This document shows positions 618 to 16,300 of a DNA stretch of 21,282 nucleotides, piece by piece. The notes under the pieces are model-generated. The model saw nothing but the letters and a program-made list of their open reading frames with translations. It did not search any database and was not told the origin of the DNA. The translations under genes and the position numbers were made by a program. Source of the DNA: a virus; IMG/VR virus record IMGVR_UViG_3300001589_000001, positions 15,811-37,092 of that record. One strand, 5' to 3'. Numbering within the stretch: position 1 is the first letter of the stretch; every line of letters starts with the position of its first letter.

Positions 618-717
618 TGATGATAGATTGTAGTCCAGTCTTTCAGCTTGGACTACTGCTAAACACTAGCCTCGTTGCTCACGGCAGTAATTTGTCAACG
701 CACTCTCAGTGCTAGAC

Positions 718-746
718 AAAAAAAAGGGCAGGATAAACCTGCCCTT
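718..746 (-). terminator. Rho-independent terminator of the leftward 157-aa gene
   Basis: On the minus strand AAGGGCAGG and CCTGCCCTT form a perfect 9-bp GC-rich stem with a 5-nt loop, followed by an uninterrupted U-run (positions 725-718). It starts 13 nt after the stop codon at 760-762. The inverted copy retains the hairpin at 1963-1994 but not the U-run. Confidence 0.9.
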
Positions 747-759
747 CTCTGCCTTTCGT

Positions 760-1233
760 TTACTCGTTAGTGTTTTTAGGTAACTGGATTCTGTTATCGT
801 CACCGAGGATCGCATCGGCATCAGCAAGGACGGCAGAATCAACTTTCTTTGTCTTGCTAGGAGACATTGTCCATCTCTTGCCAGTTACATACTCACATAC
901 AACTTGGTCGTCCTCATGGATTGAATCTAGCTCTGCTAGTTCTGCTTCCATTGAGCGATAAATAAGTATCGCTTGTGCGAGTGCAGTACCCTCGTTCTTA
1001 GAACCTTCTGTCGGACGAGCCTGATCAATCACGCCCTTCTGTTTTGACATAAGGCCGAGCTTGTACTTAATGGCATTGTCAGAGGAGTAGCAAGCGTTCC
1101 TTGCGTTGTTCTCTCTTAGATATTTGAACTCTTCTCCTATTGAGTAGTTTATAACTTGGAGTTTTGCCAACTGACGCTCAGTTGATGGGTCTTGCACTTG
1201 TACTTCTTGGATTTTCTTTTGTGTGTTTGTCAT
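760..1233 (-). CDS. Conserved-looking hypothetical protein, 157 aa, with structured mRNA
   Basis: Protein of unknown function beginning MTNTQKKIQEVQVQ. It is charged and largely helical in character, without signal peptide, membrane segment or recognisable catalytic motif. Two helix-prone, Glu/Ala/Leu-rich parts are near residues 15-45 and 84-106, and a basic stretch (SPSKTKK) is near residue 125. The ATG at 1233 is preferred because GGAG lies 6 nt upstream. An ATG at 1245 would add four residues but has no ribosome site. Amino-acid composition, ribosome site and a terminator right after the stop all argue it is truly coding. A diverged, frame-broken inverted copy lies at 1459-2058, and several RNA helices are shared by the two copies. 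Function is not inferred. Confidence 0.75.
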   Translation of the reverse strand: MTNTQKKIQEVQVQDPSTERQLAKLQVINYSIGEEFKYLRENNARNACYSSDNAIKYKLGLMSKQKGVIDQARPTEGSKNEGTALAQAILIYRSMEAELAELDSIHEDDQVVCEYVTGKRWTMSPSKTKKVDSAVLADADAILGDDNRIQLPKNTNE

Positions 1234-1256
1234 CTTATTCTCCATCTTGGATTAAA

Positions 1257-1276
1257 TACTCAGACAATTCTGAGTA
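1257..1276. promoter_or_regulatory. Perfect 7-bp dyad in the 5' UTR of the 157-aa gene
   Basis: TACTCAG (1257-1263) and CTGAGTA (1270-1276) flank a 6-nt centre, 24 nt upstream of the chosen start codon. It could be an operator or a 5' mRNA hairpin. The homologous stretch in the right arm (about 1484-1504) keeps the CTCAGA-TTGTC sequence but not the symmetry, so the dyad is specific to the coding copy. Confidence 0.4.
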
Positions 1277-1378
1277 TGCCGACGAATAACATAAGCAAAA
1301 TGTATGTCACAAAGAATCGTCTTCAGATGGAGTGCAACGAATCTATGATTCGTATGCAATACACGAACTCCTATTCTT

Positions 1379-1408
1379 TTGACAGTCGGAGACCGAAGCC
1401 AATCAATA
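1379..1408 (+). promoter_or_regulatory. Possible rightward promoter for the structured RNA
   Basis: TTGACA at 1379-1384 is a perfect sigma-70 -35 box. At 17-18 nt spacing the -10 is only ATCAAT or TCAATA, which is poor. It lies in the spacer between the two inverted arms, immediately before the first hairpin of the right arm, where a promoter for that RNA would be expected. The evidence is weak. Confidence 0.25.
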
Positions 1409-1414
1409 ACAAGA

Positions 1415-1436
1415 GCCACCCCTTCTTAGGGGTGTC
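1415..1436 (+). repeat. TTCTTA-loop hairpin module, copy 1
   Basis: GCCACCCC-TTCTTA-GGGGTGTC is an 8-bp stem with one conserved C-U mismatch. It is enclosed by the outer stem AGCCAAT (1397-1403) / ATTGGCT (1443-1449). The flanks (AATAA before, ACTTTTAT after) also resemble those of copy 2 at 2015-2036. With only a short U-stretch after it, it could act as a weak terminator, but nesting inside a second stem suggests an RNA architectural module. Confidence 0.6.
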
Positions 1437-1766
1437 ACTTTTATTGGCTGATGTGCAAATTTTGAATATGTTTTCTTCTGCATACTGACTCAGATTGTCC
1501 TAGGATTTAACCAAGATGGAGAATGACAAACCGCAAAAGGAAATTCGAGAAGTGCGAGTCTCCATCAACTCGAGCGACAGTTGGCAACACTCCCTTTTAG
1601 ACAGGCTCTTCTTTTAGTCAGGAGGAGAAGAGTTCAAATGTCTAAGGGAGTGACGCTAGGGTTGGTTGCCTCTGACAATGCCGTTAAGTCAAGCTACCTT
1701 ATGTCCTAACATAAGGCGTGCTTGACCACGGCTTGTGCCACGGCAGAATGTTACGAGGGTACTGCA

Positions 1767-1839
1767 CTCACACATTCGATTCTTCTCTCAATGGAATACT
1801 AGCAAGGCTAGTTCATTCCATGAGACAATCGAGTGTGAG
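1767..1839 (+). other. Longest stem-loop of the candidate RNA (29 paired positions)
   Basis: Nested helices in order: CTCACAC 1767-1773 / GTGTGAG 1833-1839; TCGAT 1776-1780 / ATCGA 1828-1832; TCTC 1786-1789 / GAGA 1822-1825; ATGGAAT 1791-1797 / ATTCCAT 1815-1821; ACTAGC 1798-1803 / GCTAGT 1807-1812, with loop AAG. The interruptions are small. It is long enough to be an RNase III substrate. The coding copy retains the outer helix (981-976 / 897-892, with a G-U pair), the middle helix (955-947 / 920-913) and the apical CTAGC/GCTAG (939-935 / 931-927). Confidence 0.7.
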
Positions 1840-1851
1840 TTTGTGACTGGC

Positions 1852-1910
1852 ACGATATGGCCTCCTAGCAAGCCAAAGCCATTTGCTTTGTCCTTGCTGA
1901 TGCCTATCGT
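1852..1910 (+). other. Stem-loop of the candidate RNA (21 paired positions)
   Basis: ACGATA 1852-1857 / TATCGT 1905-1910; GGC 1859-1861 / GCC 1902-1904; AGCAAG 1867-1872 / CTTGCT 1893-1898; CAAAGC 1874-1879 / GCTTTG 1885-1890, with loop CATTT. The AGCAAG/CTTGCT helix is also present at the matching place in the coding copy's mRNA. Confidence 0.65.
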
Positions 1911-2014
1911 TCCTTGGTTACTATATCCATTACCTATAAACCTAACTAGTCAACGGAAGACACAGAGATGGGCAGTTATCCTGCCCTTTCTCTGGTCTAG
2001 CACAATAATATAAA

Positions 2015-2036
2015 GCCATCCCTTCTTAGGGATGTC
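2015..2036 (+). repeat. TTCTTA-loop hairpin module, copy 2
   Basis: GCCATCCC-TTCTTA-GGGATGTC. Compared with copy 1 (1415-1436), a C-G pair has become T-A on both sides of the stem (compensatory change), while the loop and the C-U mismatch are kept. The outer stem GCACAA (2000-2005) / TTGTGC (2045-2050) encloses it. It may also serve as a weak terminator before the late operon. Confidence 0.6.
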
Positions 2037-2044
2037 CTTATCAT

Positions 2045-2054
2045 TTGTGCGTTG
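2045..2054 (+). promoter_or_regulatory. TTGTGCGTTG motif, copy 1 (upstream of terS)
   Basis: The decamer TTGTGCGTTG occurs three times on the plus strand (here, 5321-5330 and 8695-8704), each time ahead of a key gene start: terS, the gp6.7-like/portal pair and the major capsid gene. Here it overlaps a perfect TTGACA box. The core GTGCGTTG also occurs on the minus strand at 701-694. Confidence 0.35.
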
Positions 2055-2079
2055 ACAAGTTTTCTAATGGCTCTAAGAA
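2052..2079 (+). promoter_or_regulatory. Possible sigma-70-type promoter for the late operon
   Basis: TTGACA (2052-2057) is followed after 16 nt by TAAGAA (2074-2079), 53 nt before the terS start. The -35 box is perfect and the -10 is moderate. It overlaps the left half of the stem at 2061-2122. Confidence 0.35.
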
Positions 2080-2122
2080 TGGGGGGGAACAAGGGGGGGT
2101 GATTGTTGATTGCCATTAGAAA
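2061..2122 (+). promoter_or_regulatory. Leader stem-loop with two G7 tracts ahead of terS
   Basis: TTTCTAATGGC (2061-2071) and GCCATTAGAAA (2112-2122) are a perfect 11-bp inverted repeat. The 40-nt loop contains two runs of seven G (2081-2087 and 2093-2099) separated by AACAA. The right half of the stem includes the weak ribosome-site region AGAAAGG of terS, so folding could limit TerS translation. Paired G-runs could form two-tier G-quadruplexes or be slippage-prone. Confidence 0.5.
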
Positions 2123-2131
2123 GGTTTAGGT

Positions 2132-2503
2132 ATGGATTTAGCAGGTAAATTGACTTCCCGAGAGATCGCTTTGGTTGATACCCTCGTAGCATCTGGCGGG
2201 AGCATCAAGGATGCTTCGCAGATGGCGGGGTATGCCAAAGGCGAATCGGGAAGAGTGAGTGCCAGTCGTGCTTTGAAGCGACCTCATGTACAACAGTACA
2301 TGATGCAAGCAGTAGCAGACTCCCTTGGAGTCCATGCTACGTCAGCTTGCAGTAGGCTGGTTAGCCTTAGTAGGTCTGCCCGAAGTGAGTATGTCCAACT
2401 CGAGGCGAGTAAGGACATACTGGATCGGGCAGGCTTTAAGGCACCAGACAAGGTCGCTCATCTGCACGCAGGGGAAATTACGGTATCCATAGACCTGAGT
2501 TAG
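2132..2503 (+). CDS. Terminase small subunit (TerS)
   Basis: This 123-aa protein would recognise phage DNA for packaging and load the TerL motor. Residues about 7-60 have the layout of the small-terminase helix-turn-helix domain: LTSREIALVDTLVASGG, then a DASQMAGYAK turn-helix, then SASRALKRPHVQQYM. This is the 'new DNA-binding helix, then K/R-P-x-V' pattern typical of this family. The helical middle (SLSRSARSEYVQLEASKDILDRAGF) would give oligomerisation. It is the first gene of the rightward operon. The ribosome site is weak (AGAAAGG) and partly inside a stem. The family call rests on motif layout and on TerL lying 1.3 kb downstream. Confidence 0.75.
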   Translation: MDLAGKLTSREIALVDTLVASGGSIKDASQMAGYAKGESGRVSASRALKRPHVQQYMMQAVADSLGVHATSACSRLVSLSRSARSEYVQLEASKDILDRAGFKAPDKVAHLHAGEITVSIDLS

Positions 2504-13307: not shown

Positions 13308-16300
13308 ATGGCTGGTGTAATAAGAGAAGCTACAAAGTTTAGGAATCAACAAATTGGCGTTGTTAAAGCGTCAAGAGGTGCAGTTGATGTTCAAGACTCG
13401 GTAACTAAACTTGCTGACAATATTACTGCTATGGCAGTCAAAGAAGCTGGTATCACCGCAGAGCGTGAAGGAAAGACATTTGCTAAAAGTCTTAGTGAAA
13501 ATCAATTACGATCTATAAATCCAAAGACTGGAAAACCTGAAGCGTTTGACGCTATGCCAACAACTTACGGCAGAATAGCAAGAGATGCTTTTCAAGATAC
13601 AGTAAACACTCAATACGAGCAAAGCATAGCTTCAGAAATACAAGCTATGGCTAAAAGAACTGAGGCTCTATATCCTAACGATCCTGATAAATACGCCACT
13701 ACATTTGGCACAAACATAAACGTAATGAAGCAACACGCTACTGGTATCTACGCCAATCTTATTGATAGATATGGTTCTACATATTTAGCGTCAACAAAAT
13801 TAAGTATCCAGTCTGCTCAAATTAAAAAAGCTCAAACGCATCTTAAAGAAAATGTTTTAATTAGCTCAGAGCAAACCAGTCAAGCCATTACAAATATGTA
13901 TGGAGCAAATGCATCAGATCAAGACATAATAAATACCTATAATCTTCAAAAACAAATTATTGATAAGGGTAAAACTGGAAACGTATTAGGCCCTAACGAT
14001 TCGGCTAAAGCGTTTTCTTACCTAAACAATTCAATGGTTAAAGGTTCTATTACTAGATATGTGCTTACTGGTGCTGGTGTTGAAGATGACACAAAAAGGA
14101 AACTAATAACAAGCATTTCCAATAAACAAAAGTTACTTGATTATATTTTAGCTCCACAAGATACAAAGCTTTTGCAGTTTGATGATACTATTATAGTTGC
14201 TCCTAAGAGAACTGTAATGGGTACAGACGGCAAAACAGTAGTGTTGCCTGAAATGACAATGCGTGAATATGCTGAGTACACAAACGAAAGAATGGAAAAG
14301 CTTACTGATAGAGATGATGTAGTTTCATACTTAAAGAATACTATAACTACTGCTGACGTTATTAGAAATGAAGAAAACAATGAAGCTGAAATAAAAAATA
14401 AGATAAAAGAAAATAGTATTATTGATTCAGCTAATTCGGATATTAAAAAAAGCACTGATACTTTAGTTACTAATAATGAAACTTATGTTCCTACATTAAA
14501 GAAAATTGTACAAGGTCTTAACAAACTTGGGAATCAAACTACGCCATCTGCTGATGGTGTAAAAGCAAAAGTAAGCAAAGACAATTATGCTAAATCAGTA
14601 GATAAAGCTTACAAAGCTACTACTTACAGTTTGCTACGTTCAATTCTTCAACCAATAAAAGACAACAAAGAGCTTAAAGAAAAAACTATTAGTGCATTAA
14701 AACGCATAAGTGCTACTGGAGATGTAGATCAGTTACTTTACCTAACAGACGTTAGCGAAGAAGATCGTAAAGTTATTACTGAAGACCAGTTTAATTCTAT
14801 AAAAACGGCTTATAGAGAATTTAGATCGGTTTCTAATGCTAAAGATTTCCATCAAATTTTTGAGCCTACATTAAGTAACACTAGTTCGGCTATTATAACT
14901 GCTAATAACACAGACTCAAAGATTGAAGGCAATGAACTTAAAGTACTAAAGGCAGAAAAAACTAATCTATTGTTTAAGATCATAGATGATTCAAAAAAGG
15001 TAATGAGCGAAGCTAGTAACATTGATGTTATTAACAATTCTGAAGAAGTAAATAGGTTGTTAGATAAACGAATAGCTAAGTTTACTACAATGTTAAAAGA
15101 GCATGAGACGTTAAAAGACAAATCTCCGTACGACAGAAGTCAAATTATTAAAGCAAGAGATGCAGAAGTTGCCGCTATTATAAGAGGTTCATTTGGTCAT
15201 CTCTTAAGTCAAGTGGATACAGAATACACTTTTGAAGATTCGCAAGGAAAAGAAATTAAACGTAAGCTAACTAAACAAGATGTTGATAATTTAGCTAATG
15301 CGTTTGTAGTTGGTAAATCTGATTTAACAATATTGCCTAAAGAGTTTAAGCCATTAATAAATGGCATTACCAAAAACCAAGTAATGCTTACTAGCGATGC
15401 GGCATCAACAATGATGACTGAGCTTAAAGATTCTTTTGAAAGTGCTACTAAATCAGCTAGTAAAGATGCGGCTATACAACGAGGTTATGAAGATATAAAC
15501 GTAAAGAACGATGTAAAGAGCGAACAGATTGATGATATTATTAATGATTTAATCTGGAAAGACATAGAGCCTGACAAAACTAAGCGTGACCCTATGTGGT
15601 TTACCAAGACTCCATTTATAGATAACGAAACTGGTAAAGTTCATCCGTTATGGTCGAATGTAATTAATACTGCTATGGCACACAATAGATTGCCTGAGCC
15701 AATTGTAAGTCATTTGAATGGTCTTGGCGATGGTACTTTAGGTATTATTACAAGTGGCATGTCTGACGCTAATAAAGCAATAATTACAAATAGATATGAA
15801 AACGCTTTCAATGTTTACAAAGCATTAACTGCTTTTGAAGTAAACAATGGAGGGCAGATAGAAACCATTAACTTACTAGATGGCAATAAATTACTAGGCC
15901 ATAAGGTCGATAAGAAATCAATGGCTAGAGTTGAGTATGCTTTATCTGTAGCAAGGGTTAGTGGAGGTGATGGTCAAGCTACTGAGTTAATCAAACAATT
16001 GACTATGTTTAATGATGAAAAAGAACGTAGTGGTTTTAGAACAGTATTTTTAGATAACATTAACAATGCGTATCAAGAAGATAAAACCTTACCTAAACCT
16101 AGTAGCATACAAGCGGCAGTAGCTTTAACCACTAATAACCAAAGGTTAATAATGGAGCTTACTCCTTGGGCAACGGAACAAGTGTCTATAGGCAAAATAT
16201 CTAATCTTGATCAAATGGATGAGGCTATTAAAGAAAAGTTAAAAGAATATCAAATTCCAAGCCGTATTGTGTTTACAACAGTTAGTGATGGTGGAAGTTG

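Follow-up and report, generated by a model that had tools for sequence, protein, structure and literature searches.

Following up a sequence-only reading by a model, we analysed a window of 21,282 nucleotides of viral DNA (positions 15,811 to 37,092 of the IMG/VR virus record IMGVR_UViG_3300001589_000001, which holds 37,092 bases), in which the gene of a small protein lies head to head with a frame-broken copy of itself. Together, the gene and its copy make up the two sides of a single giant, imperfect hairpin. Such hairpins recur upstream of the terminase small subunit gene (terS) in related phages, where their arms co-evolve with each other. Judging from patterns in these sequences, we put the chances at about even that the working molecule is a plus-strand RNA rod that is antisense to the small gene.

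A protein gene and its mirror copy form one hairpin

When positions 1400-2100 of the plus strand were compared by BLAST with the phage's own record, a single second place was found, on the minus strand, with 72% identity (E 8.6e-76). A repeat finder and an alignment revealed blocks common to both copies from the leader past the terminator hairpin. A symmetric alignment of the two arms yields 587 pairs, of which 84% are Watson-Crick, and has a score of 1055; the arm score of shuffled DNA is at most 103 (50 base shuffles, five loci). The inverted pair is also the strongest in the record, in that windows overlapping it score up to 878 and the other 39 windows at most 194. The sequence-only reading had described such a pair at the point where leftward and rightward transcription diverge, next to terS, and both the pair and its location are confirmed: there is a single divergence point, and it adjoins terS.

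That reading had further stated that the left copy encodes 157 amino acids and that the right copy cannot encode a protein, which agrees with our results. The open reading frame (ORF) on the left encodes 161 amino acids, or 157 from a second ATG that has GGAG six bases ahead of it, and the longest stop-free stretch is 163 codons in the left copy versus 92 in the right. Among 21 phages with long arms (see below), stop-free stretches span 139-188 codons on the left versus 47-116 on the right in every case, and no right copy has an intact frame. A minus-strand terminator-like site, at or near the equivalent of the one at the left arm's outer end, is present in 17 of these 21 phages. The proposal that the right copy is not a decaying pseudogene is supported, and its structure has been kept. 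In the apex region, one of the short branch hairpins (1398-1452) folds with a z score of -4.2.

Recurrence in related phages

Relatives were collected by IMG/VR searches with TerL, TerS and the small protein, each of which gave at least 80 loci, in overlapping lists. Related loci are referred to by L numbers, and the locus of the window as WIN. Among the matches listed, self-BLAST detects an inverted repeat within 3 kb upstream of terS in 54 of 84 distinct regions, although some of these 54 repeats are unrelated hairpins far upstream. With 85 distinct regions (again among the matches listed, with the isolate phage described below added), the arm score upstream of terS is above 200 in 47, and control windows downstream of terS score at most 170 (n=74). 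Gene-length arms, with scores above 600, occur in 43 of the 63 distinct regions that were fetched via the small protein, among the matches listed. From 50 loci scoring above 600 we hand-picked 21 long-arm representatives, which belong to 16 clusters or singletons (L202 and L208 share a cluster, as do L170, L178 and L194, L206 and L235, and L168 and L182), and we chose 15 loci of other clades from those with detectable arms. Across these 36 loci the arms span 160-637 pairs, and 73-92% of the pairs are Watson-Crick.

The hairpin is also present in an isolate, Pelagibacter phage EXVC031P Hodr (L163), whose genes are in the same order and whose hairpin comprises 266 pairs, 92% of them Watson-Crick. 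Self-BLAST of Hodr at E values up to 0.01 gives no repeat; the evidence for its hairpin comes from the symmetric alignment and from the fold. In several short-arm phages the arms span the leader and start of the small gene. In a seven-locus alignment of long-arm phages, pairing is 93-98% in the helices at the start codon versus 64-68% in two mid-gene helices.

The sequence of the right arm differs between phages. The right arm in the window matches its closest relative, L083, over only 86 bases by terS, and the arms of L083 itself are 71% identical to each other. A nucleotide search for the RNA gave no match in the phage collection, and among the fetched loci only short matches, mostly by terS, of which the one in L083 is the best. 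Since the right copy resembles the left copy of the same phage while the sequences differ between phages, the two copies are presumably kept alike, or are remade, within each genome.

The small protein itself changes rapidly. Homologues in relatives are 22-42% identical, whereas TerL is 78-87% identical. The window's protein has no PHROG, Pfam or PADLOC match, its AlphaFold2 model is all-helical (mean pLDDT 79.6), and no fold in the PDB matches it at E values up to 0.001. A peptide search with this protein alone found no relative, but an alignment of ten proteins did, and the relatives' small proteins have only marginal or sub-threshold family matches. The proteins of L096 and Hodr are related to the window's at most distantly (profile probabilities of 45 and 59%, respectively, with a weak BLASTP match for L096). 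As L096, L125 and Hodr keep the hairpin despite a protein that is at best distant, the hairpin seems tied more closely to the locus than to a particular protein sequence.

The two arms co-evolve

We compared paired positions in 13 pairs of close relatives from nine clusters (13 of the 15 pairs obtained; L210-L243 and L188-L189 were omitted). Both sides have changed in 215 of 7,039 pairs, versus 53.5 expected, and 161 of the 215 both-sided changes lead from one Watson-Crick pair to another. In the same 13 comparisons, 492 left and 599 right bases have changed. A whole-hairpin alignment of seven loci contains 200 both-sided cells, versus 68.6 +/- 6.0 by shuffling (200 was reached in 0 of 500 shuffles); when the partner arm is slid along, at most 56 such cells remain. 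Thus, the arms co-evolve with each other. The sequence-only reading had looked to covariation in related phages for support of the right copy's own stems. Covariation is indeed present, but between the arms, and what supports the local stems of the right arm is weak.

Mismatches and folding favour the plus strand

Mismatches between the arms differ according to the strand on which they are read. In the 21 long-arm representatives, mismatches on the plus strand comprise 794 G.U versus 184 A.C, and G.U is ahead in all 21. The other plus-strand mismatches in the same phages are 144 G.G versus 33 C.C, 238 U.U versus 98 A.A, and 413 A.G versus 214 C.U. In the other clades there are 262 G.U versus 85 A.C, with G.U ahead in 13 of 15 loci, so that the bias holds in 34 of the 36 loci overall. 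Background alignments from the same genomes have G.U to A.C counts of 1015 to 801 and 631 to 563 (a ratio of 1.1 to 1.3). Given the left base, U-A has become U.G at a frequency of.123, and A-U has become A.C at.038.

We considered a mutational strand skew as the source of the G.U excess. Among the right-arm bases of long-arm phages, C and G have frequencies of.116 and.398 at mismatches versus.239 and.188 where unpaired, and at fourfold sites of terL the frequencies are.112 for G and.134 for C. Because neither the bulged bases nor the fourfold sites have an excess of G, a skew is unlikely in the long-arm group, where we regard this explanation as unsupported. The plus strand of the whole hairpin also folds better than the minus strand in all eight long-arm phages folded, with -710.6 versus -661.1 in the window. 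Together, the mismatch bias and the fold strengths point to a plus-strand fold-back across both arms that has been kept stable in most phages.

Individual lineages load their mismatches with purines or pyrimidines, the ratio of A.G to C.U being 4:29 in the window, 7:27 in L180 and 67:4 in L177. In these lineage counts, and in the counts of transitions and codon positions given below, a position may count twice where the halves of a self-alignment disagree; a one-sided recount of the arm counts agrees in direction and size.

The lengths of uninterrupted runs fit this picture. In 22 phages the longest exact runs between the arms are 10-18 bp. Exact runs fall below the mean of alignment-matched simulations in all 22, and P is at most 0.05 for the longest run in 11. 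When plus-strand G.U pairs are allowed, the longest runs reach 12-32 bp, versus 9-22 with minus-strand G.U (26 phages). Our reading of these numbers is that something restricts exact identity of the DNA, perhaps recombination or the instability of palindromes, and that G.U pairs preserve an RNA helix nonetheless. The run lengths thus favour RNA, although they depend on the same G.U signal. The assumption in the sequence-only reading that the element acts at the RNA level is, in view of the G.U bias and the helix runs, likelier than action as DNA.

The right copy folds well by itself only in some lineages

The right copy had originally attracted attention for its local stems, from which an RNA gene was proposed. 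In the window these stems are present, and the right copy does fold better than the left mRNA. Its z score is -8.9 (20 shuffles) or -9.9 (25 shuffles), versus -3.9 and -4.3 for the left mRNA, and the stems at 1672-1742, 1760-1845 and 1848-1915 have z scores of -6.3, -5.9 and -5.9, respectively (200 shuffles each). Of 19 right arms tested, those of the window, L178 (-8.1), L182 (-5.7), L170, L194 and L168 are strong (z -9.9 to -4.8), and the right arm of L170 folds alone at -179.5. However, eight of the 19 are near chance, with |z| of about 1 or less (L202, L196, L218, L175, L191, L181, L177 and L206). When seven related right arms are folded together, the consensus is weak as well (-40.4 kcal/mol, covariation term -1.55), although 25 of its 104 pairs have both-sided changes. 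We therefore dropped the conserved local stems as a property of the family. The self-fold of the right arm is a trait of lineages, perhaps an alternative fold, and it is with the left arm that the right arm clearly co-varies. The sequence-only reading was thus half right: its signal is true, but the partner of the right arm is its twin and not itself.

Membership in a known RNA family, such as GOLLD or ROOL, had also been raised. No Rfam family, these two included, matches at its gathering score in the window, L045, L144, L096, L083 or L163, and at E values up to 1 the region 600-2131 has two matches only, both far under the cut-off.

A proposed plus-strand RNA rod and its alternatives

We propose that a plus-strand transcript would enter from the left, run antisense through the small gene, turn at the divergence point and then cross the right copy in the direction of the late genes. 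The RNA would fold into a rod of kilobase size, with about 590 aligned pairs in the window's phage, in which G.U pairs could keep the RNA helix while breaking the DNA identity that might otherwise invite recombination or loss of the palindrome. Transcription in the late direction may otherwise free antisense RNA against the start region of the small gene, and the right arm would lock this RNA in cis. The rod might then mainly set expression of the small gene at the boundary of early and late transcription. This role in control of the small gene is a clearly more tentative proposal than the rod. Arm-to-arm copying probably helps to maintain the match, and selection would also keep the rod. Of 30 phages scanned, only WIN, L170 and L194 have a terminator-like site for the plus strand at the outer end of the right arm, so the transcript could run on towards terS in most phages. 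A plus-strand terminator near the apex, considered as an attenuator, occurs in only four of the 30 and was dropped.

Several observations weigh against a plus-strand RNA. No convincing plus-strand promoter was found to the left of the arms. Of the 85 regions upstream of terS, 38 have no strong repeat at a score line of 200. The pairing gradient of the seven-locus alignment is not seen when 22 phages are pooled, where pairing is lowest (.783) in the eighth of the arm closest to the apex. Covariation was measured on relatives, no close relative of the window's phage having been found, and the both-sided changes often lie in tight patches, with a transition share like that of single changes (79 of 162 versus 352 of 699). 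The patches and the equal transition share make it likely that arm-to-arm copying is part of the process. As for the strand bias, L073 and Hodr reverse the G.U trend (5:7 and 4:6), and in Hodr the minus strand folds better (-349.9 versus -323.1). Right-arm bulges in the other clades are G-rich (.315, versus.143 for C), so the control for mutational skew fails there. The imbalance of G.G over C.C matches that of G.U over A.C, and a fold-back of DNA could produce it likewise. In the window's own phage, the A.G to C.U ratio runs opposite to the direction of the family, and the run-length test is not significant (P 0.225).

Some of these points fit the main rival, an element that works as DNA, which is possible, though distinctly less probable than an RNA: the long imperfect palindrome would act as single-stranded DNA or a cruciform in replication, concatemer processing or packaging, and gene conversion or hairpin template switching would keep the arms alike. 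Packaging sites often lie beside terS, which the palindrome adjoins. The patchy both-sided changes and their transition share are consistent with arm-to-arm copying, the near-equal ranking of G.G and G.U suits DNA as well, and the phage encodes a YqaJ-type recombinase and has a weak, below-cut-off match to an Hjc-like resolvase. However, short exact DNA runs next to long helices that tolerate plus-strand G.U would be odd for a DNA hairpin, and no known signal or genome end was found at the palindrome, in a genome whose ends are not mapped. Alternatively, the mirror copy may be a silent cassette that feeds changes by conversion into the expressed gene and so diversifies a fast-changing protein. 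The low identity of the small protein beside that of TerL suits this idea, as do the both-sided patches, 70 of whose 123 changes within the ORF fall at codon positions 1 and 2, versus 85 of 181 single changes in the left arm. However, the patches do not tell the direction of copying, the arms are restricted to the leader and start in many phages, and a cassette leaves the plus-strand mismatch bias without an explanation, so we think it improbable.

Almost as improbable as the cassette is the reading in which the right copy, a descendant of the coding gene, works as a structured RNA gene in its own right through its local stems. The z scores of the right arms in WIN, L178 and L182, the three stems near -6 and the terminator-like hairpin that follows the right arm argue for it; the right arms near chance and the weak consensus argue against it, and the G.U bias and the strong covariation belong to pairing between the arms. 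Finally, it is very improbable that the pair is a plain inverted duplication decaying as a pseudogene, or an assembly chimera, without any function. The broken frame of the right copy in all 21 phages speaks for this. However, the arms in the 36 loci counted are at a level of complementarity where none is near-identical, as a fresh duplicate or a chimera would be; they co-evolve; and an isolated phage carries the hairpin.

Genes and other features of the locus

The features of the window that relate to the hairpin are collected in Table 1. The map appears to be circular, since a gene cut at the end of the window resumes where the record begins. The inverted pair sits where two gene modules diverge, with the mirror copy between the minus-strand gene at 760-1245 and terS. 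The leftward module, on the minus strand, includes a YqaJ-like recombinase, a helix-turn-helix protein that weakly matches DnaD and a DUF932 protein, and the rightward module, on the plus strand, leads from terS to terL, a head-tail adaptor and the capsid gene.

Table 1. Features at the inverted pair (window coordinates).
Feature	Position	Strand	Basis
Left hairpin arm: antisense strand of the small gene together with its leader and terminator	709..1380	+	symmetric alignment, one-sided recount
Outer end of the left arm: the small gene's terminator-like hairpin	719..745	-	sequence
Small protein gene, which opens the leftward module; 161 aa, or 157 aa with the start at 1233	760..1245	-	ORF list
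Apex region with short branch hairpins, including 1400-1450	1302..1459	+	whole plus-strand RNA fold
Right arm: frame-broken, non-coding mirror of the small gene	1381..2003	+	symmetric alignment, one-sided recount
Local stems of the right arm in the window's phage, possibly an alternative fold; not family-wide	1672..1915	+	folds, shuffles, consensus fold
Terminator-like hairpin just beyond the right arm	2014..2045	+	direct repeat D2, 81%; terminator scan
Promoter-like site of the late module (TTGACA, 17, AAGAAT)	2052..2080	+	consensus scan
Pair of G tracts that follows the promoter-like site and precedes terS; shared by many relatives	2083..2102	+	sequence
terS, terminase small subunit	2132..2503	+	PHROG 2538, E 7.4e-10

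The promoter consensus scan found seven sites versus 5.1 expected, and is thus weak alone; TTGACA is present at the corresponding place upstream of terS in many relatives. The G tracts read GGGGGGGAACAAGGGGGGG in the window, have a counterpart at about 1346-1366 in L045, and perhaps mark a transcription start or a packaging signal. The hairpin just beyond the right arm is one of two copies, the other lying in the apex (1411-1445); they are 81% identical, with matched changes in their stems, and similar hairpins were spotted by eye in L170, L178, L194 and L180. A 35-nucleotide direct repeat (99-133 and 410-444, 80% identical) carries the ribosome-binding site and start codon of minus-strand genes, and leaders in relatives are similar. 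To the left of the window in its record (G000), L167:13495-13791 encodes a zinc-ribbon protein, a candidate regulator of late transcription, with an NrdR-like N-terminal domain above the cut-off and an Ogr/Delta match below it.

Relation to known elements

Insect hpRNA loci and plant MIRNA genes are comparable hairpin genes. The latter are reportedly born by inverted duplication of their target gene (PMC3237417). In both, as proposed here, a long imperfect hairpin RNA comes from a protein gene plus its inverted copy, and one of the arms is antisense to that gene; the left arm of our hairpin is indeed the antisense strand of the small gene. However, the MIRNA or hpRNA hairpin is a separate locus that acts via small RNAs, whereas in the phages the living gene is one of the arms, and the host is a bacterium. 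Viroids, hepatitis delta and obelisks would share the rod of kilobase size with frequent defects and short perfect helices, but the present element is encoded by a DNA phage and has no Rfam ribozyme match. GOLLD and ROOL are likewise long structured RNAs in phage genomes, but they have a compact multi-stem fold and a conserved sequence, unlike a single long rod with no Rfam match. The hairpin ends of T7 concatemers and the single-stranded DNA promoters of plasmids are, likewise, long imperfect palindromes that fold near ends or entry regions. We know of no coding arm that co-evolves with a mirror copy among long palindromic DNA elements, and, to our knowledge, neither eukaryotic hairpin genes nor rod-like RNAs have a living protein gene as an arm in cis. 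In the open-licence literature we found no description of such an element in phages, only the eukaryotic hairpin analogues. As far as we know and found in that literature, the gene and its proposed RNA would be a pair of a kind new to bacteria and their viruses.

We consider it an even bet that a large family of marine phages carries a kilobase rod RNA, built from the antisense strand of a living gene and, as its second arm, a non-coding mirror that co-evolves with that gene. The rod would act as a self-quenched antisense RNA, a late leader or a scaffold. Direct testing is possible in the isolate Hodr, which carries the hairpin but, as a caution, not the strand bias seen in most of the other phages. 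If the proposal is true, the same bases serve both to encode a protein and to build a giant RNA fold in many phages of the ocean, and this has lasted long enough to leave a clear record of paired changes. The phages would then offer a natural system for how one sequence serves both a protein and a kilobase duplex, and would bear on the stability of long inverted repeats and on how a long fold-back RNA acts in bacteria or evades RNase III there.

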